A stretch of 64,000 nt of DNA from an uncultured Campylobacter sp. (GTDB lineage Bacteria > Campylobacterota > Campylobacteria > Campylobacterales > Campylobacteraceae). The stretch lies in assembly GCA_934728065.1 (NCBI GenBank), contig CAKVDW010000003.1, forward strand, positions 1 through 64,000, in the 5' to 3' direction. A model generated the notes under the pieces. The model worked only from the letters and a program-made list of their open reading frames with translations. It was not told the origin of the DNA and did not search any database. This document shows positions 10,624-51,624 of the stretch, piece by piece. The position numbers and the translations under genes are program-made. Each line of letters begins with the position of its first letter. Positions within the stretch are counted from its first letter, which is position 1.

Positions 10624-11394
10624 CTAAAAAGTTGGTATAACACTACCGTCATATTTTTTGAGTATAAATTCCCTCAATTCTTTAGTGCGTAAAGCCTCAT
10701 CAATAACCTTAGTCTTAATACTGTCTTTATCTTCGCCGCGAACAACAACAAAATTTGCATAAGGGCTATCTTTTTTTTCTAAAAAAATGGCATCTTTTGT
10801 AGGATTTAAGCCATAATCAAGCGCATAGTTTGTGTTTATAATAGAAATATCCACATCATCAAGCGAACGAGGAAGTTGAGCGGCTTTAAGCTCTTTGAAT
10901 TTAAGATTTTTAGGGTTTTTAGTTATATCTTTTGGTGTTTTAAAGCCTTTGCCTTTTTTGAGTTCTATAAGTTTTGCTTGTTCTAAAATTTCTAAAGCCC
11001 TATTTTCGTTTGTTGGGTCGTTTGGAATGCTCACAGTAGCTCCATTTACTAACTCATTAATATTTTTTATCCTTTTTGAATACACGCCCATTGGAAAGAT
11101 AGCCACACTTGTAGTGGCAACCAAATTTGTTCCTTTGCTGCGATTAAACTCCTCTAAATAAGGCTTATGTTGAAATAAATTTGCATCAAGTTTGCCGTCA
11201 TTTAGGGCTACATTTGGTATAGCATAGTCCGTAAATTCGATGATTTTGAGTTTGTAACCCTTTTTTTCAATAGCAGGACGGACAAATTCCATAATCTCAT
11301 CAAAGGGTGCAGGAGATACACCAACAACAATAAGCTCTTTAGCCCAAAGACTAGAAGCTACAAGCAAACCGAGCAGTAAAATTTTCATTTTCAT
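10624..11394 (-). CDS. MetQ/NlpA-family substrate-binding protein, copy 4
   Basis: This 256-aa periplasmic binding protein for a methionine-type ABC transporter has signal peptide KMKILLLGLLVASSLWA and then KELIVVGVSPAPFDEIM, where related copies have GSTPVPYAEIL. The signal has no lipobox cysteine, so it is probably a soluble periplasmic protein. DVDISIINTNYALDYGLNP near residues 170-190 is the ligand-pocket segment. It is the last of four tandem paralogs, and an internal 95-bp DNA block is identical to that of copy 2 (12196-12969). Differences in the ligand-facing N-lobe relative to the others suggest a different ligand range, which is inference. Confidence 0.88.
   Translation of the reverse strand: MKMKILLLGLLVASSLWAKELIVVGVSPAPFDEIMEFVRPAIEKKGYKLKIIEFTDYAIPNVALNDGKLDANLFQHKPYLEEFNRSKGTNLVATTSVAIFPMGVYSKRIKNINELVNGATVSIPNDPTNENRALEILEQAKLIELKKGKGFKTPKDITKNPKNLKFKELKAAQLPRSLDDVDISIINTNYALDYGLNPTKDAIFLEKKDSPYANFVVVRGEDKDSIKTKVIDEALRTKELREFILKKYDGSVIPTF
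10853..10947 (-). repeat. 95-bp block shared by three metQ-like genes (first of three)
   Basis: The block at 10853-10947 is identical to 12425-12519 and differs at one base from 11638-11732. Flanking parts of the genes are much more diverged. Such a patchwork is expected from gene conversion among the tandem copies. Confidence 0.9.
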
Positions 11395-11408
11395 TTATTT
11401 ATCCTTTC

Positions 11409-12185
11409 TTAAAAAGTGGGAATGACATTGCCACCATATTTTTTAAGTATAAATTCCTTAACTTCTTTTGAGCGCAAGACTTCGTTTATAGCCTTTGTTT
11501 TAGCGCTTTCTTTATCATTTGGACGAACGACAAAAACCACAGCGTAAGGACTGTTTTTATCTTCAATTAAAATGGCATCTTTTGTAGGATTTAAGCCATA
11601 ATCAAGCGCATAGTTTGTGTTTATGATAGAAATATCCACATCATCAAGCGAACGAGGAAGTTGAGCGGCTTTAAGCTCTTTGAATTTAAGATTTTTAGGA
11701 TTTTTAGTTATATCTTTTGGTGTTTTAAAGCCCTTTGTTTGTTTAAATTCAAGTAAATTTGCCTTTTGTAATAGTTCAAAAGCTCTGTCTTCATTGCTTG
11801 GGTCGTTTGGAATGCTAACACTTGCGCCGTTTTTAAGCTCATCAAGGCTTTTGAGCGACTTTGAGTAAATTGCCATAGGAATGATAGCCACGCTGTTTAT
11901 CGCCACGAGTTTAGTGCCTTTGCTTTGATTAAAGGCATCAAGATAGGGTTTGTGCTGAAAGAAATTTGCATCAAGTTTGCCGTCATTTAAAGCCACATTT
12001 GGAATGGCAAAGTCGTTAAATTCAACTATTTTAAGCTCATAACCCTTTTTAGCGAACAAGGGTTTGGCAAATTCTAAAATTTCTCCAAAAGGAACATGTG
12101 TAGAACCGATGATGAGGCTTTCTTTTGCACACAAACTCGAAAAAGCCAACAAAAATACAAGTATAAAAGCTCTAAATTTCATCAC
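11409..12185 (-). CDS. MetQ/NlpA-family substrate-binding protein, copy 3
   Basis: This 258-aa paralog of the same family has a signal peptide ending around FSSLCAKES. A cysteine is present there but the context is not a good lipobox. The C-terminal third is nearly identical to that of copy 2 (both end KYGGNVIPTF), while the pocket segment DVDISIINTNYALDYGLNP matches copy 4. The gene is therefore a mosaic of its two neighbours. The short gaps (10-14 bp) and the absence of terminators indicate one transcript. Confidence 0.88.
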   Translation of the reverse strand: MMKFRAFILVFLLAFSSLCAKESLIIGSTHVPFGEILEFAKPLFAKKGYELKIVEFNDFAIPNVALNDGKLDANFFQHKPYLDAFNQSKGTKLVAINSVAIIPMAIYSKSLKSLDELKNGASVSIPNDPSNEDRAFELLQKANLLEFKQTKGFKTPKDITKNPKNLKFKELKAAQLPRSLDDVDISIINTNYALDYGLNPTKDAILIEDKNSPYAVVFVVRPNDKESAKTKAINEVLRSKEVKEFILKKYGGNVIPTF

Positions 12186-12195
12186 TTATCCTTTC

Positions 12196-12969
12196 TTAAA
12201 AAGTGGGAATGACATTGCCGCCATATTTTTTAAGTATAAATTCCTTAACTTCTTTTGAGCGCAAAACCTCATTTATAGCCTTTGTTTTAGCACTTTCTTT
12301 GTCTGCTTTTCGCACAGCAACAATAATAGCATAAGGACTATCCTTGCTTTCTATCAAAAGAGAGTCTTTAACAGGACTTAATCCATAATCTAAAGCATAA
12401 TTTGTAGGGATAACAGCCAAAGTAACATCATCAAGCGAACGAGGAAGTTGAGCGGCTTTAAGCTCTTTGAATTTAAGATTTTTAGGGTTTTTAGTTATAT
12501 CTTTTGGTGTTTTAAAGCCCTTTGTTTGTTTAAATTCAAGTAAATTTGCCTTTTGTAATAGCTCAAAAGCCCTGTCTTCATTTGTTGGGTCGTTTGGAAT
12601 GCTTACTAAAGCACTATTTTGTAGGTCTTTAATATCTTTAACATTCCTAGAATACACACCCATAGGCACCAATACTACACTTTGCATAGAAAGCAAATCT
12701 GTGCCGTTGCTTTTATTAAATTCATCTAAATACGGCTTGTGTTGAAATAAATTCGCATCTAATTTTCCCTCATTAAGAGCTTTATTTGGCACAGCATAAT
12801 CCGTAAATTCAACTATTTTAAGCTCATAGCCCTTTTTAGCAAACAAGGGTTTAGCAAATTCTAAAATTTCAGCATAAGGAACAGGTGTAGAACCGATGAT
12901 GAGGCTTTCTTTTGCCCAAGAATTAGACATTATGAGTAAAAATACAAATATCAAACTTTTAAATTTCAT
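12196..12969 (-). CDS. MetQ/NlpA-family substrate-binding protein, copy 2
   Basis: This 257-aa paralog has signal peptide KFKSLIFVFLLIMSNSWA. Its N-lobe GSTPVPYAEILEFAKPLF resembles copy 3, but its pocket segment DVTLAVIPTNYALDYGLSP differs from copies 3 and 4. The shared 95-bp block (12425-12519) extends further into copy 3 (through FELLQKANLLEFKQ). It sits 10 bp after copy 1 in the array. Confidence 0.88.
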   Translation of the reverse strand: MKFKSLIFVFLLIMSNSWAKESLIIGSTPVPYAEILEFAKPLFAKKGYELKIVEFTDYAVPNKALNEGKLDANLFQHKPYLDEFNKSNGTDLLSMQSVVLVPMGVYSRNVKDIKDLQNSALVSIPNDPTNEDRAFELLQKANLLEFKQTKGFKTPKDITKNPKNLKFKELKAAQLPRSLDDVTLAVIPTNYALDYGLSPVKDSLLIESKDSPYAIIVAVRKADKESAKTKAINEVLRSKEVKEFILKKYGGNVIPTF

Positions 12970-12979
12970 TATTTATCCT

Positions 12980-13756
12980 TTAAAATGCTGGTATCACTGC
13001 ACCTTTGTATTTATCGGCGATGAATTTTTTAACCTTTTCGCTTTGCAAAGCCTTTACAAGTGCCTTTGTTTTAGCTGTTTTTTCCTTACCAGCCTTAACT
13101 ACAAGCACATTCACATAAGGACTTGATTTGCTTTCTAAGACCAAGCCGTCTTTTGTGGGATTTAAGTTTGCTGCAAGAGCGTAATTAGCATTAATCACAG
13201 CATAATCAGCATCGCTTAATGCGCGTGGAAGTTGAGCTGGTTTAAGCTCTATAAATTTGATTTGCTTTGGATTGCTTGTTAAATCAAGCGGAGTTTTTAA
13301 GGCATTATCCTTAAAACTTACCACACCTGTGCTAGCAACAACATCAAGAGCGCGACTCTCATTTGTTGGGTCGTTTGGAACGGCAATTTTTACGCCATTT
13401 TTTAAGCTATTAGTGTCAAAACTCTTGTGTTTTTTTGAATACACCGCCATAGGCTCAAGGTGAATGCCCACTACACGCACAAGTTTAGTTCCTTTGTTTT
13501 TGTTAAACTCCTCCAAATAAGGAATATGCTGAAAGAAATTTGCATCAAGTTCGCCACTGTCAGTAGCTAAGTTAGGTTGAACATAATCATTAAATTCCTT
13601 AACAACAAGTTCAAAGCCGCGTTTTGCCAAATCATCTTTGATAAATTCCAAAATTTCAGCGTGTGGCACAGGTGTTGCGCCTACAAGTATTTTTTCAGCA
13701 CTAAAAGCCGTGCTAAAACCTAAAAAAAGTGTAAAAACCAAGAGTTTAAGTTTCAT
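12980..13756 (-). CDS. metQ: MetQ/NlpA-family methionine-type substrate-binding protein, copy 1
   Basis: This 258-aa protein is the most diverged and the first of the four, closest to metI-metN. Signal peptide KLKLLVFTLFLGFSTAFSA is followed by EKILVGATPVPHAEILEFIK, a classical MetQ/NlpA N-lobe. It is the best candidate for the general D/L-methionine binder of the MetNI transporter. A TATAAT box about 85 bp upstream suggests the array can be transcribed separately from metI, as well as by read-through. Confidence 0.88.
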   Translation of the reverse strand: MKLKLLVFTLFLGFSTAFSAEKILVGATPVPHAEILEFIKDDLAKRGFELVVKEFNDYVQPNLATDSGELDANFFQHIPYLEEFNKNKGTKLVRVVGIHLEPMAVYSKKHKSFDTNSLKNGVKIAVPNDPTNESRALDVVASTGVVSFKDNALKTPLDLTSNPKQIKFIELKPAQLPRALSDADYAVINANYALAANLNPTKDGLVLESKSSPYVNVLVVKAGKEKTAKTKALVKALQSEKVKKFIADKYKGAVIPAF

Positions 13757-46302: not shown

Positions 46303-46462
46303 AAGCTGTCCATAAAATTTTTAAGTTATTTTAACCCATTTATATTATAATTTTGTGAAAAAAGAAATGTTTTTTGGCAAAAAATGCTAAAATTTTTTAT
46401 AAGTAAAGAAAGTTGCAAGAATATTTGACCCTTAAAAACAAGTCTATAAAATGGAAAAAACA

Positions 46463-46942
46463 ATGAAAAAACTCGCAATGGCTTTTAGCGGTCCGTCAAA
46501 TTCAGGCAAAACTACGCTCATCACAAAACTTGCCAAAGCCTTTATAGAGCAAGGTTTGAAAGTGGTTGTGCTGAAACACGACCCAAAGGATAAGGCGAGT
46601 TTTGACACGGCGGGCAAAGATAGCTTTAAATTCTACCAAACAGGCGCAAGCGTCATCGTGCAAAGCCCGACAAGAACGACATTTTTTTCACACGAAAGCC
46701 TTGCAATCGATGAATGTATCGCGCTTACTGGGGACTTTGACATTTTTTTAGTGGAAGGCTTAAAGCATTTGCCGCTACCGCGCATTAGTGTGTTTTGCGA
46801 TAAGCTCGATGAGAGCTACTTTGCCTACTCACAAGCCATAGCAAGCTACGAAAAAATCAACACTCCAAACCTAAAATGGCTACATTTAGACGACATACAA
46901 GGCATTTGCGCCTACATTTTGACAAATGCTAAAAGGTGTTAA
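46463..46942 (+). CDS. mobB: Molybdopterin-guanine dinucleotide biosynthesis protein B
   Basis: This P-loop GTPase (159 aa) has MKKLAMAFSGPSNSGKTTL with Walker A near residues 9-17 and DIFLVEGLKHLPLPRISVF near residue 98. It aids MobA in making the bis-MGD cofactor used by NapA. I prefer the ATG at 46463, where GGAAAAAAC serves as ribosome site, over 46451. Its last 31 bp are the source of a diverged copy found 1.7 kb downstream, at 48620-48650. Confidence 0.92.
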   Translation: MKKLAMAFSGPSNSGKTTLITKLAKAFIEQGLKVVVLKHDPKDKASFDTAGKDSFKFYQTGASVIVQSPTRTTFFSHESLAIDECIALTGDFDIFLVEGLKHLPLPRISVFCDKLDESYFAYSQAIASYEKINTPNLKWLHLDDIQGICAYILTNAKRC

Positions 46943-46959
46943 AATGAAACTAATTTTGA

Positions 46960-46965
46960 TATAAT
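46960..46965 (+). promoter_or_regulatory. Probable -10 box of RM module A
   Basis: TATAAT 18 bp after the mobB stop and about 20 bp before the chosen start codon. It shows that the cassette has its own promoter. Confidence 0.55.
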
Positions 46966-46984
46966 GTCATTGCAAGGAAATAAA

Positions 46985-47764
46985 ATGATAAAACCAAACA
47001 AAAAACACGCTGTGCTGCTTGACTTATACGAGCATTGCAAGGGACAAGACAATTTTGTCTTTCACAATGATTTAGTTAAGGATTTTGCTAAAAAACACAA
47101 ATTTGGCAACCCATTTGACGCTACAAAGCTTGATTCTAGCGATAAATTGCCACAACTTTTTAAAGAACAAGACATTTGTTTGCTTCATTTAGGCAGCGGA
47201 AATCACAAATTTATCAAAGGTATAAACAAACTTTACCACACATTTGAACCGATACAAGAAAGGACAGAATGGGCTTATAAAAAAAGCCTGCTTAATGAAT
47301 ACAACGACAGCGAAAGCAACATTTTAAGCGTAGCAAACAATCAACGCATTTTACACGATTTTGTCTTTGGTAGAGACTTGGAATTTGAAAATCTACCCAT
47401 TCAAAAACGCCCTAAAACTTATTTTCCACATCGCACAAAAACCACACTTCGATACTCTTTTGAAAACGAGCAAATAATAGCCTTAAATCAACAAATTGAA
47501 ATCGATTTAACGCTCGAATTTAACGCAGTTGTAGCTATTTTTGAGGCAAAAAACGGCACGCTAAAAGATTTTAACATTTATCAAATTTATCACCCATTTT
47601 TGTATTATTACAGCTCAAATTTGCCTTTGCAAAATATCATTTGCTGTTATTTGTTGCGAAATGAAAATAGTTTAAAGTTTTTTGCCTACACTTTTGAAAA
47701 ACCATTACAACTTGATTCAATCAAATTTTTAAAATCAAAAGAATATATTTTAAGAAAGGATTAA
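46985..47764 (+). CDS. Putative type II restriction endonuclease, RM module A
   Basis: This 259-aa protein is of no family I recognise. It contains a PD-(D/E)xK-like active site: IDLTLEFNAVVAIFEAKNG, with Asp about residue 174 and Glu-Ala-Lys at 187-189. That and its place 1 nt before a methyltransferase gene are the grounds for calling it a nuclease. The start is the ATG at 46985 with AAGGAA at 46975; the frame also opens at 46964, inside the -10 box, which cannot be the start. Target site unknown. Confidence 0.65.
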   Translation: MIKPNKKHAVLLDLYEHCKGQDNFVFHNDLVKDFAKKHKFGNPFDATKLDSSDKLPQLFKEQDICLLHLGSGNHKFIKGINKLYHTFEPIQERTEWAYKKSLLNEYNDSESNILSVANNQRILHDFVFGRDLEFENLPIQKRPKTYFPHRTKTTLRYSFENEQIIALNQQIEIDLTLEFNAVVAIFEAKNGTLKDFNIYQIYHPFLYYYSSNLPLQNIICCYLLRNENSLKFFAYTFEKPLQLDSIKFLKSKEYILRKD

Positions 47765-47765
47765 A

Positions 47766-48584
47766 ATGCAGTTTAACAAACTCTACAACGATGACACGCT
47801 TAAAATTCTCAAATCCTTACCACAAAATTCGCTTGATATGATTTGGGGAGACCCTGATTATAATGTCGGCATAAACTATAACGGCAGTAAATACACACAA
47901 AAATGGGAGGATTATATTGCGTGGTATTGTGAGCTAGCAACGCAGTGTTTGCGAGTGCTGAAACCTAGCGGAAATTTATTTTTGATGAATTATCCAAAGC
48001 AAAATGCTTATTTGCGTGTGCGTTGCCTTGATGAGTTGGCTTATGATGTGCAAGATTATGCGTGGATATATAATACAAATGTAGGACACAGCCACAGACG
48101 CTTAACCACAGCTCACAGAAGCATTTTGCACGCCACAAAGTCAAAAAACAATCACTTTTACAAAGATAATATCGCCCTACCCTATCAAAACCCCACAGAC
48201 AAGCGGATAAAAGAGCGGATAGCAAGGGGCGAAAAGGGACGAATGCCTTACTCGTGGTTTTATTTTGATTTAGTGAAAAATGTCAGTAAAGACAAAACCT
48301 TTCATTCTTGTCAAATTCCAGCTCCACTTGTAGAAATGTTTATCAAATCCTGCACGAATGAGGGAGATAGCGTGTTTGTGCTTTTTGGTGGAAGTGGTGG
48401 AGAGATAGTTTTATGCGAAAAATTAAAACGAAAATGGATAAGTTGTGAGTTGCATAAACCTTATTTTGATATGATACAAGATAGATTAAAGAATGATGGG
48501 CAAATTAAAAATGAATTTAAACTAGAATTTGCAAAAATAAAAGACAAAGAATTAAATTTATTTGATTTAAAATCCATTTCTTAA
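47766..48584 (+). CDS. DNA methyltransferase (beta-class order, DPDY motif), RM module A
   Basis: This 272-aa methyltransferase has motif IV WGDPDYNVGINY near residue 30, with DPDY in place of the usual DPPY. The SAM motif I region VFVLFGGSGGEIVL is near residue 206. VLKPSGNLFLMNYP near 65 is motif V/VI-like. The second Pro of motif IV normally shapes the catalytic loop; the Asp replacement may be a trait of a subfamily. Its stop codon lies inside the A-run of the scar that follows. Confidence 0.85.
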   Translation: MQFNKLYNDDTLKILKSLPQNSLDMIWGDPDYNVGINYNGSKYTQKWEDYIAWYCELATQCLRVLKPSGNLFLMNYPKQNAYLRVRCLDELAYDVQDYAWIYNTNVGHSHRRLTTAHRSILHATKSKNNHFYKDNIALPYQNPTDKRIKERIARGEKGRMPYSWFYFDLVKNVSKDKTFHSCQIPAPLVEMFIKSCTNEGDSVFVLFGGSGGEIVLCEKLKRKWISCELHKPYFDMIQDRLKNDGQIKNEFKLEFAKIKDKELNLFDLKSIS

Positions 48585-48650
48585 AAAGGACAGCAAATGC
48601 AAGAGATTTTAAAACACAGCTACATTTTGGCAAATGCTACAAGGTGTTAA
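48583..48650 (+). other. Recombination scar: fbp 5' end fused to mobB 3' end
   Basis: Bases 48583-48618 match 50610-50645 (fbp ribosome site and first codons) with one mismatch in 36. Bases 48620-48650 match 46912-46942 (mobB 3' end) with two mismatches in 31. The join keeps an open frame MQEILKHSYILANATRC from 48597 to the stop at 48650. It thus has fbp-start then mobB-end order, the reverse of the native mobB-fbp order, as expected if two cassettes, each flanked by mobB and fbp, were joined head to tail. Confidence 0.9.
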
Positions 48651-49736
48651 ATGTTGCACGGCGTAATTACAAATTTTTCTTATCAAAAATGCTGGATTGA
48701 AAATTTGCCTTGCGTGAATTTTACGGACATTAACGATTTGCCGAGTAAATGCCTTGTGAATTTTAATGGCAAAAACTTCGCATTAAGCAAGTGGGTAAGC
48801 CCGAAACGCACACGAAGTTATCCTTATGCACGAGTTTATGACACTTTTTCAAGCTCAGCAAGTAAAGTCGTAACGATAATTCCGCTCATCAAAGATGAGG
48901 GTGCAAGTGGAGATATGGACTATTTGCAGTGGGATACGCTTTCTTTGATGAGTTTGCTTAATGTCTATGTGATTATCGCTTTTTACGATGAGGCACAGCC
49001 GCACCCTAGATACAAAGACAAAATCACACAACAAAAACTAAACAACAAATACATTTTAGAGCAGCTAAACAAGCTTTGTGATTATCATCAACCAGCCTTG
49101 CATTTTAATCTCAACCAACTCAGCATTCAAAACCTTTCAAATCTCACAAATTTAGCCAAAAACGCCTATATAAATCTTTCAAAATCCCTAAACATAACAC
49201 TTCATAACCCACAAAATATAGATAAATTTGCCACTAAAATTACGCAAAACAAAAATGATTTTATCTCATTTTCAAGAGACAAAGCCAAAAGAGCGCAAAA
49301 CGCAGAATCCCTTACCACGCAGCCAAAAGAGCATATCGGCGTAGGACAAAAGGGCAAAATCATCATAGAAAACTACTTGGGCGGGCAGTATTTTTTTACC
49401 ATTGATGATATATTTCTCAAAAACGACATTTTACATTTGTGTGAAAGCAAACACAGTAAAAGCGCACTTTTACCAAGTGCTGATGATATAAAAGATGGGC
49501 TTTTAAAACTTATGCTTTATAATAATCTTGCTAAAATTCAAGGTTTTAGCCATTTTAAAGTGGTTTTAAGGCTTACTTCAAGTGCATTAAAAGCTAATTT
49601 TAAGCTCCCAAACTCAAATTTAAATGCCTTTATCGCTCATCATAAATTTTCATCAGCCCAACAAGTAATGTTAAATTCTCTTAACAAAGAAGCAAGCAAC
49701 AATAACTTTGAAATTTGGATAAATGATGAAAACTAA
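48651..49736 (+). CDS. Putative type II restriction endonuclease, RM module B
   Basis: This 361-aa protein has an active-site-like segment DDIFLKNDILHLCESKHS, with Asp near 251-252 and Glu-Ser-Lys at 264-266, a PD-(D/E)xK pattern preceded by KGKIIIENYLGGQYFF. The family is not recognised. The ATG follows directly after the stop of the fused scar ORF, and AAGG within the mobB-derived part of the scar supplies its ribosome site, so it depends on the scar for translation. It overlaps the next gene by 14 bp. Confidence 0.65.
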   Translation: MLHGVITNFSYQKCWIENLPCVNFTDINDLPSKCLVNFNGKNFALSKWVSPKRTRSYPYARVYDTFSSSASKVVTIIPLIKDEGASGDMDYLQWDTLSLMSLLNVYVIIAFYDEAQPHPRYKDKITQQKLNNKYILEQLNKLCDYHQPALHFNLNQLSIQNLSNLTNLAKNAYINLSKSLNITLHNPQNIDKFATKITQNKNDFISFSRDKAKRAQNAESLTTQPKEHIGVGQKGKIIIENYLGGQYFFTIDDIFLKNDILHLCESKHSKSALLPSADDIKDGLLKLMLYNNLAKIQGFSHFKVVLRLTSSALKANFKLPNSNLNAFIAHHKFSSAQQVMLNSLNKEASNNNFEIWINDEN

Positions 49737-50571
49737 TTTTTTAAAATCCCCGCTTCGCTATCCGGGCGGCAAAAGCCGAGCGATAAAAGTTCTTATGCCA
49801 TTTTTTCCGCAAGATTTTGATGAATTGGCAGAGCCATTTTTTGGCGGTGGAAGTGTTGGACTTTATTTAGCGCAAAAATTCAGCACAAAACAAATCTTTG
49901 CAAATGACTTAAACACTGATTTATATTGCTTTTGGCAGACATTAAAAACGCAAAACAAAGCCTTGATTGACGAGATTAAGCGCACTAGGCAAACGCATAC
50001 TAATGGACGCGAACTTTACGAAAAGTTGCTTGCGAGAAGGGGTGAGAATTTAAGCGACTTTCAAAGGGCGGTGGATTTTTTCGTGCTTAATCGCATTACT
50101 TTTTCTGGCGTGGTGGATTGTGGTGGATACTCACAAAAGGCTTATGAAAGCCGTTTTACGCCAAGTAGCATTGAGAGGCTTAAAAATATGGACAGCATTT
50201 TGCGTAATTTTACATTCAGCAACCAAAGCTATGAAAGTCTTTTGCAAAACAATGGAAAAAGAGTTTTTATCTTTTTGGACCCGCCATATTTTAGTGCGAG
50301 CAAATCAAAGCTTTATGGCAAAAAGGGCGATTTACACACGAATTTTAACCACGAGCGGTTGTGCGAACATCTTAAAAACACAAAACATCGTTTTTTGCTT
50401 ACTTATGATGATAGCGAGTTTATAAGGGAGCTGTATAAGGATTTTTACAAATTGAAATACACCTTGCAATACGGTATGAATAATTTTAAACAAACAAAGG
50501 CAAATAAAGGACAAGAGTTACTCATAAGCAACTATGAATTCATCAAAGAAAATAAACTTTTTATCGCATAA
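49723..50571 (+). CDS. Dam-family DNA adenine methyltransferase, RM module B
   Basis: This 282-aa alpha-class N6-adenine methyltransferase has LRYPGGKSRAIKVL at the N-terminus, SAM motif EPFFGGGSVGLYLA near residue 38 and catalytic FLDPPYFSAS near residue 186. Unlike RM system 1, one methyltransferase stands with one nuclease here, suggesting a symmetric site with adenine. Two adjacent ATG codons open it. It ends 52 bp before fbp. Confidence 0.87.
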   Translation: MMKTNFLKSPLRYPGGKSRAIKVLMPFFPQDFDELAEPFFGGGSVGLYLAQKFSTKQIFANDLNTDLYCFWQTLKTQNKALIDEIKRTRQTHTNGRELYEKLLARRGENLSDFQRAVDFFVLNRITFSGVVDCGGYSQKAYESRFTPSSIERLKNMDSILRNFTFSNQSYESLLQNNGKRVFIFLDPPYFSASKSKLYGKKGDLHTNFNHERLCEHLKNTKHRFLLTYDDSEFIRELYKDFYKLKYTLQYGMNNFKQTKANKGQELLISNYEFIKENKLFIA

Positions 50572-50623
50572 AAGCACAAAATGAAAGCTAAATATGATAA
50601 AATAAATCAAAAAAGGACAGCAA

Positions 50624-51478
50624 ATGCAAGAGATTTTAAAGCACATAAAAAAGGCGGTTTTGGCGATTTCAAATGAGATGAAATTCCCAGACACAGGCTA
50701 TCAAAACAGCCAAAACGCCACAGGCGACACGCAGTTAGGCTTTGACATAAAAAGCGATGAGCTTATCACTCGCATTTTAGGGCAGTGCGGCGAGATAAAA
50801 GCACTTATTAGCGAGGAAAAAAGCGACATTTACGAGCTAAATTCGGGCGCAAAATATGTCGTAGCTTACGACCCGCTTGATGGTTCGTCTTTGTTTGATG
50901 TGAATTTCGCCGTTGGCTCGATATTTGGCATTTATGAAAACGAGGCAAGCGCACGAAATTTAAAAGCTGCCGTTTATAGCATTTACTCAGCGCGCTTAGA
51001 ACTCATCATTTGCGAGCAAAAAAGTGCGCCAAAACTTTACAGGCTAAATCAAAACGGCGAATTTGTCCTTGTCAAAGAGCTGAAAATAGGCGAAAAAGGT
51101 AAGATAAACGCCTGCGGAGGCACGCAAAAAGAGTGGTCGCCCACTCACGCAAACTTCATCAAAAGCCTATTTAATGAGGGTTACAGGCTGCGTTATAGTG
51201 GGGCTATGGTGAGTGATATTCATCAAATTTTATGCAAGGGCGGCGGGCTTTTCAGCTATCCAGCCACGACAAAAGCCCCACAAGGCAAGCTCCGCGCCTT
51301 TTTTGAGGTGCTGCCTATGGCGTTTATCGTGGAAAATGCAGGTGGCAAGACGACTGACGGCACGCACGACACGCTTTTTGAGCTTGAATTTAACGCCTTG
51401 CACGCTACTACGCCTTGCTTTTTTGGCTCAGCCTACGAGATAAACAAGCTCTTATCAGCATATAAAGGCGACAAATGA
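50624..51478 (+). CDS. fbp: Fructose-1,6-bisphosphatase class I
   Basis: This 284-aa enzyme removes the 1-phosphate of fructose-1,6-bisphosphate in gluconeogenesis. The metal-binding YDPLDGSSLFDVN is near residue 87 and GKLRAFFEVLPMAFIVENAGG near residue 222. AAAAAAGGACAGCAAATG is the start region, a copy of which lies at 48583. In relatives mobB lies directly upstream; here 3.7 kb of RM genes intervene. Confidence 0.95.
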   Translation: MQEILKHIKKAVLAISNEMKFPDTGYQNSQNATGDTQLGFDIKSDELITRILGQCGEIKALISEEKSDIYELNSGAKYVVAYDPLDGSSLFDVNFAVGSIFGIYENEASARNLKAAVYSIYSARLELIICEQKSAPKLYRLNQNGEFVLVKELKIGEKGKINACGGTQKEWSPTHANFIKSLFNEGYRLRYSGAMVSDIHQILCKGGGLFSYPATTKAPQGKLRAFFEVLPMAFIVENAGGKTTDGTHDTLFELEFNALHATTPCFFGSAYEINKLLSAYKGDK

Positions 51479-51624
51479 TGAAAAATTCACGCTTTTTACG
51501 CCAAATTTCACTCTTTTTTGCGAAAAATTCAGCTGTTTTGGCTAAAAATTTAAATTCTTGCAAGCACAATTCGCATTTTGTGGCTTTAAATTCGCTCAAT
51601 TTAAATTCAAAGGACAAAAAATGA
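51478..51624 (+). CDS. Possible 48-aa peptide between fbp and the next gene
   Basis: The ATG overlaps the fbp stop (TGATG) and the stop overlaps the next ATG (ATGA), so the frame exactly bridges the two genes. AAAGGCGACA in the fbp end could be its ribosome site. The peptide MKNSRFLRQISLFFAKNSAV and onwards is basic and Asn/Ser-rich, with no known motif. It could be real or a coupling device, or simply an open stretch of AT-rich spacer. Confidence 0.3.
   Translation: MKNSRFLRQISLFFAKNSAVLAKNLNSCKHNSHFVALNSLNLNSKDKK

Follow-up and report, generated by a model that had tools for sequence, protein, structure and literature searches.

How do two complete gene pairs for DNA restriction and modification come to stand one behind the other between two core genes? 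This question is raised by a locus in a 64,000-nucleotide stretch of DNA from an uncultured Campylobacter species (contig CAKVDW010000003.1, positions 1 to 64,000; hereafter the window), in which the interval between mobB and fbp holds two gene pairs, an endonuclease followed by a methyltransferase in each, as read from the open reading frame (ORF) list and from Pfam and NCBIfam matches. Between the two pairs, module A (R_A and M_A) and module B (R_B and M_B), a second fbp start and a second mobB end stand end to end and in frame, and we refer to this fusion as the scar. A sequence-only reading of the window had described the fusion and ascribed it to recombination between two alleles, each with its own cassette. 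Our analysis of the scar, of the four genes and of related genomes makes it probable, although well short of certain, that alleles of the form mobB-A-fbp and mobB-B-fbp recombined, one side being closed by homology and the opposite side by an end-join of fbp start to mobB end.

The left half of the scar (48583-48618, on the plus strand like every feature of the locus) is a copy of the fbp leader and the first 22 coding bases of that gene, and it matched its parent at 50610-50645 in 35 of 36 positions. The right half (48620-48650) is a copy of the mobB end including the stop codon; comparison of 48620-48651 with the parent at 46912-46943 gave 30 identities in 32 positions. The single base between the halves (48619, G) fits neither parent, being T in fbp and C in mobB. 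Scored without gaps (+1/-3), the two matches reached 32 and 24, and the third best match within 46400-51500 reached 12; the maximum in 60 dinucleotide shuffles was 16, far below the observed values, which bears out the repeats as they were first described. The fused frame, taken by direct reading and translation (48597-48650, 17 codons), runs from the ATG at 48597 as MQEILKHSYILANATRC-stop, and its TAA (48648-48650) lies directly before the R_B ATG at 48651. As an in-frame join is expected by chance in one case out of three, the frame does not show selection.

The fbp start and the mobB end share no sequence. Judged on the window's own copies, the join at 48618/48620 shows no overlap and leaves a single base unassigned, and the locus thus contains a junction of the kind, with at most a few nucleotides of homology, by which homology-facilitated illegitimate recombination is recognized. 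The fbp start (36 nucleotides) is repeated on either side of a unit made up of the mobB end and module B, an insert that would then carry the mobB end out of order, and 31 identical bases are repeated across module B in the window.

Both core genes are complete, mobB upstream (46451-46942; PF03205, TIGR00176) and fbp downstream (50624-51478; PF00316, PF18913, NF006782). Module A comprises R_A (46985-47764, in an ORF that opens at 46964; DUF6996 and DUF6997, PADLOC REase_II 2.1e-13) and M_A, a predicted N6/N4 DNA methyltransferase (47766-48584; PF01555, PADLOC MTase_II 9.9e-110). Module B comprises R_B (48651-49736; PADLOC REase_II 6.2e-76, with no Pfam match) and M_B, a predicted Dam-type D12 N6-adenine methyltransferase (49723-50571; PF02086, TIGR00571, PADLOC MTase_II 2.4e-112). 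PADLOC models of Type II restriction enzymes or methyltransferases thus matched each of the four genes in the mobB-fbp interval, in agreement with the earlier description of a fusion between two nuclease and methyltransferase pairs, and with an adjacent endonuclease and methyltransferase of Type II families in each, both pairs are predicted to be Type II restriction-modification (RM) systems. Residues E172, D174, E187 and K189 of R_A were invariant across 40 aligned sequences, as were D252, E265 and K267 of R_B across 48, a pattern that we take to fit nucleases of the PD-(D/E)XK type. Structural models of the two endonucleases (mean predicted local distance difference test scores, pLDDT, of 90 for R_A and 92 for R_B) gave no fold match in the PDB at E<=0.001; the weak matches of R_A included Cas4-like, AddAB and McrBC nucleases.

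The boundaries of the modules are tightly set. Both begin at the same point, after the TGTTAA of mobB. The M_A stop codon abuts an fbp-type ribosome-binding site, the fbp leader AAAGGA standing directly at the end of module A, and module B reaches its leader after a tail of 38 nucleotides (50572-50609, by direct reading), which we assigned to module B because it has no counterpart after M_A. No integrase-like or recombinase gene was found among the genes from mobB to fbp in the ORF list or in Pfam, NCBIfam and PADLOC matches (small ORFs were not scanned), as had been stated from the sequence, and the locus therefore lacks among these genes the recombinase that marks an integrase- or transposase-borne island. 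The GC content at third codon positions (GC3) was 0.31-0.39 in the modules and 0.46-0.50 in mobB, fbp and metG; we dropped low GC3 as proof of foreign origin, since other genes of the window are equally low, such as a transglycosylase-like gene at 0.33.

According to the explanation that we favor, two strains of this species would have differed in the Type II RM pair that filled their mobB-fbp interval, and DNA of one allele would have entered a cell that carried the other, probably via natural transformation, Campylobacter being naturally competent. One side would have been joined by homology within a core gene, whichever of the two that was, and the other side without homology, linking the 36 nucleotides of fbp leader and start of one allele to the last 31 nucleotides of mobB of the other. 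The product would be mobB-A-(fbp start/mobB end)-B-fbp, with the second module added rather than exchanged and the core genes left intact; we infer this order of events. It is the arrangement expected when mobB-A-fbp meets mobB-B-fbp, as the right flank of one module is joined to the left flank of the other. With crossovers in both mobB and fbp, B would take the place of A, so that the retention of both modules needs one illegitimate join, and this was the step missing from the sequence-only reading, whose model of allele recombination is otherwise in keeping with the gene order and the differing mobB ends. In the product, R_B may be translated by coupling from the 17-codon frame, which has the fbp ribosome-binding site, in place of its former contact with mobB.

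The mobB end of the scar differs from the resident one at two codons (ILANATRC in the scar, ILTNAKRC in the resident gene), and a representative mobB protein, P0241 (from a 306-member cluster, 98% identical), ends TLANAKRCE and so has the LANA of the scar and neither its T nor its I. That the scar does not simply repeat the resident end, and that P0241 shares its A, support recombination between alleles. The extra E of P0241 suggests that some strains may carry other sequence at the insertion point. We also considered that the A of the scar might be ancestral and the resident T derived, and dropped this because both residues occur among 23 representative mobB proteins from near relatives. As to the donor, a diverged strain or species had been proposed; three differences in 68 nucleotides are compatible with a donor strain from within the species, whereas the fbp start of Campylobacter troglodytis, the closest genome examined (fbp 81% identical in amino acids), is 86% identical over 36 nucleotides.

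If such alleles met at mobB-fbp, is this interval a dedicated site for the exchange of cassettes, as the sequence-only reading had proposed? We searched 49 genomes of the genus, of which all had fbp and 46 had a mobB match. In every one of these 46, mobB stood directly before fbp, with a gap of 5-22 nucleotides from the last aligned mobB codon, and nothing was inserted there. The remaining three (C. troglodytis, G041 and G043) gave no mobB match, and their draft status leaves the absence of the gene unproved; one of them, C. troglodytis, has a relative of M_A (79% identical in amino acids) directly before fbp, with no R_A beside it. Many genomes with different cassettes at mobB-fbp, as in a genus-wide hotspot, were thus not what we found. 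The comparison of this interval that had been suggested did produce empty alleles and the M_A relative before fbp, but no allele with module B only was seen at mobB-fbp. Among the genomes searched, then, the interval appears to be occupied only in this lineage and is not a cassette slot or hotspot at the scale of the genus.

Module A was probably at fbp before the window species and C. troglodytis separated, and C. troglodytis would later have lost mobB and R_A. A second species may likewise have module A linked to mobB, since a cluster of R_A relatives (P0122, 87%) and one of mobB relatives (P0245, 85%) both list the same longest contig of 35,295 bases. Clusters of the window's own proteins hold 306 member sequences for mobB, 158 for R_B and 87 for R_A, figures of uncertain meaning for numbers of strains, which hint weakly that not all strains may carry both modules.

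Beyond this locus the modules are rare. At E<=1e-30, relatives of M_A occurred in 3 of 153 genomes of the family, and relatives of M_B in 4 (E<=1e-50); R_B relatives were likewise found in 4, one of them (G148) matched in pieces, and R_A relatives in 5 of the 49 genus genomes, one of these being close. Module B lies closely behind an unrelated gene in three genomes, namely in a TAATG overlap with what we take from its translation to be a pilus-assembly-like gene in G046, about 20 nucleotides after a presumed prfA in G059, and 37 nucleotides after a presumed uvrC in G148. Five single-module sites were compared, the C. troglodytis M_A site not being among them, and none had an exact direct repeat of more than 9 nucleotides between its 150-nucleotide flanks, as against 31 nucleotides in the window, which indicates that the duplication goes with stacking.

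Two further sites in the genus are occupied by different RM modules in different species. The position after the pilus-like gene holds module B in G046 and a pair made up of an EcoRI-type methylase and GmrSD/HNH in G049 (Pfam), and in G013 we read by eye a pair of the G049 type with the methylase in pieces. The position before a ppx-like gene holds module A in G049 and neither module in G013; in G046 the sequence there reads like the end of another methyltransferase on the same leader, preceded by a 255-amino-acid frame without a Pfam match. Putative RM modules that alternate at one site with the same boundaries therefore exist in the genus, though not at mobB-fbp. The R_A of G049 (L129:7904-8795) looks broken, its sequence being divided between two overlapping frames, and the M_A there is open.

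At the DNA level, M_A, R_B and M_B are 79-80% identical to their counterparts in C. troglodytis, next to 76% for the transglycosylase-like gene and 82% for fbp, so that both modules look about as old as the lineage and the parting of the two species; module identity close to that of core genes speaks against their recent arrival from a distant source. A plasmid or phage carrier was sought and not found. R_A matched 14 plasmid records, all below 60% identity (27-29% in the individual rows); for R_B, neither plasmids nor phages gave a match at E 1e-5, and pattern-based scans of viral contigs revealed no relatives of R_A or fbp.

A partial second case of stacking was observed in C. troglodytis (G001), in which contig C12 carries an EcoRI-methylase/GmrSD-HNH module followed by module B. 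The left flank of the first of these modules recurs before R_B, matching in 47 of 49 aligned columns with one gap and one mismatch, and the repeated stretch had no third place in this genome among the matches scored (40 of 258 candidates). It was absent from the stretches examined before module B in G046, G059 and G148 and before the methylase module in G013 and G049, and its absence before the same modules elsewhere identifies it as flank and not as part of a module. A candidate copy of the right flank was dropped as evidence, as it belongs to a dispersed repeat with at least 54 matches in the genome (40 of 258 candidates scored). Part of the sequence between the stacked modules of C. troglodytis (L126:1440-1611) belongs to a short element repeated many times in this genome. 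The M_B gene of this species is interrupted, and at the contig ends concerned (the starts of C12 and C106) matching inverted ends adjoin an identical 8-base sequence, the pattern that an insertion sequence would produce; the two pieces of the gene were compared separately.

Several observations weigh against recombination between two single-module alleles as we have described it. The mobB end of the scar equals neither the resident sequence nor P0241 nor any of the 23 representatives from near relatives. No allele of the same species with only A or only B was recovered with its DNA context, and with mobB and fbp both intact, either side could have been the homologous one. In C. troglodytis both stacked modules are damaged, the methylase being in pieces and M_B interrupted, and only the left flank copy is clean. 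We hold it possible, yet rather doubtful, that stacking by imperfect recombination between alleles of a slot is a recurrent route of defense-module gain in this Campylobacter lineage, leaving each time a readable seam in which a flank copy lies between the modules, with the window and C. troglodytis as two independent cases.

The same final order could have been reached if a tandem duplication came first, through a template switch from base +22 of fbp to a point 31 nucleotides before the mobB stop codon, with one copy of the module later replaced by homologous exchange. Relevant processes are on record, copy gain by unequal crossing-over between direct repeats having been reported beside an RM system (PMC3031569) and tandem duplications made by transformation in pneumococcus (PMC3784515). 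We nevertheless regard this course as unlikely, as it needs two events, the second of them an exchange bounded on one side by only 68 bp, and the mobB end of the scar does not match the resident one exactly, which would require that either changed later. A join between two strain alleles might also be an artifact of assembly or library construction from a mixed sample; the window may be a metagenome contig, and a sample that held both alleles would supply the material for such a chimera. The fbp start and the mobB end, however, offer an assembler no common sequence at which to collapse them, the join is clean and in frame with all four genes open, and a similar left-flank duplication exists in another genome, that of C. 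troglodytis, all of which makes a chimera quite improbable.

Module B might instead have been excised or copied as a circle in which the mobB-end and fbp-start flanks were joined, and then have been integrated by homology at fbp (or mobB), in which case a single crossover would yield exactly the observed order. This we judge very improbable in view of the genes from mobB to fbp, among which no recombinase or integrase gene was seen, of the lack of a known source of such circles, and of the five single-module sites without flank repeats. It had been stated that the allele model would be overturned if the 68 bp proved to be a conserved leader with a function and no relation to mobB and fbp, and the element's ribosome-binding site, 17-codon frame and stop codon touching the R_B start could be those of a leader. 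Its two halves match the neighboring genes at 94-97%, though, which already contradicts such unrelatedness, and a DNA search of limited sensitivity (up to 6 candidates scored per genome) found partial matches (E<=0.001) in 7 of 153 family genomes, none of them accompanied on the same stretch by mobB, fbp, R_B or M_A. No such conserved leader having been found, we give this alternative almost no credence.

The explanation that we favor, recombination between alleles with one illegitimate join, has close precedents. Homology-facilitated illegitimate recombination was proposed by Kirchberger et al. for immunity arrays of the Vibrio type VI secretion system (PMC5361080) and has been described in E. 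coli conjugation (PMC3240628). The locus resembles these cases in its one non-homologous join opposite a presumably homologous side, in the addition of a module beside the old gene and in the lack of an integrase; it differs from them in that each module is a complete RM pair and that short pieces of both flanking core genes are kept at the join, recording the event. In Helicobacter pylori, a PabI-family RM locus has one homologous and one non-homologous junction with a 1577-bp duplication, and PabI-family loci show TAAA at an insertion boundary and the replacement of an RM gene by another RM system at one site (PMC4615327). Here, as at the PabI-family loci of Helicobacter and Campylobacter, an RM pair lies directly after a core gene, but the duplication described in that source flanks an integrative and conjugative element inside one RM locus, and two complete RM modules split by fused flanks do not appear in the part consulted (PMC4615327).

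In the insertion of RM genes with long target duplication, reported from related bacterial genomes (Nobusato et al. 2000), copies of the target likewise stand as direct repeats next to an RM gene pair. Unlike those duplications, the scar presents two pieces in reversed order, the fbp start and then the mobB end, and the five single insertions have no comparable flank repeat. Hotspots of variable genes between core genes that are poor in integrases, with recombination at the flanking core genes (PMC5635113), are similar in lacking a recognizable mobile element and are over-represented in transformable bacteria, whereas the occupied mobB-fbp interval is confined to one lineage among the genomes searched. 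Precedent thus exists for the mechanism, for one RM system taking the place of another at a shared site and for hotspots poor in integrases, and similar events have been published; the remark that no description was known stands for the seam alone, no description of this form having been found in our literature search.

Elsewhere in the window, on the minus strand at 10624-13756, we observed four tandem genes about 785 nucleotides apart, the first of which encodes an NlpA-type lipoprotein (Pfam); a 300-nucleotide stretch of these genes is 62-83% identical to the reference copy.

Defense genes frequently cluster where no integrase is visible, and their addition, rather than exchange, is rarely seen. 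The seam, although its component parts are of familiar kinds, shows how bacteria can add defense genes rather than swap them, and the pieces of both core genes that it keeps make the event readable from one sequence. An automated search of any genome set can look for its signature, in which the beginning of the downstream gene runs into the last part of the upstream one and a module lies on either side, so that the rate at which modules are added rather than swapped at defense loci becomes testable. If stacking of this kind does recur, seams of fused core-gene ends could be sought genome-wide and would allow module gains without integrases to be counted.

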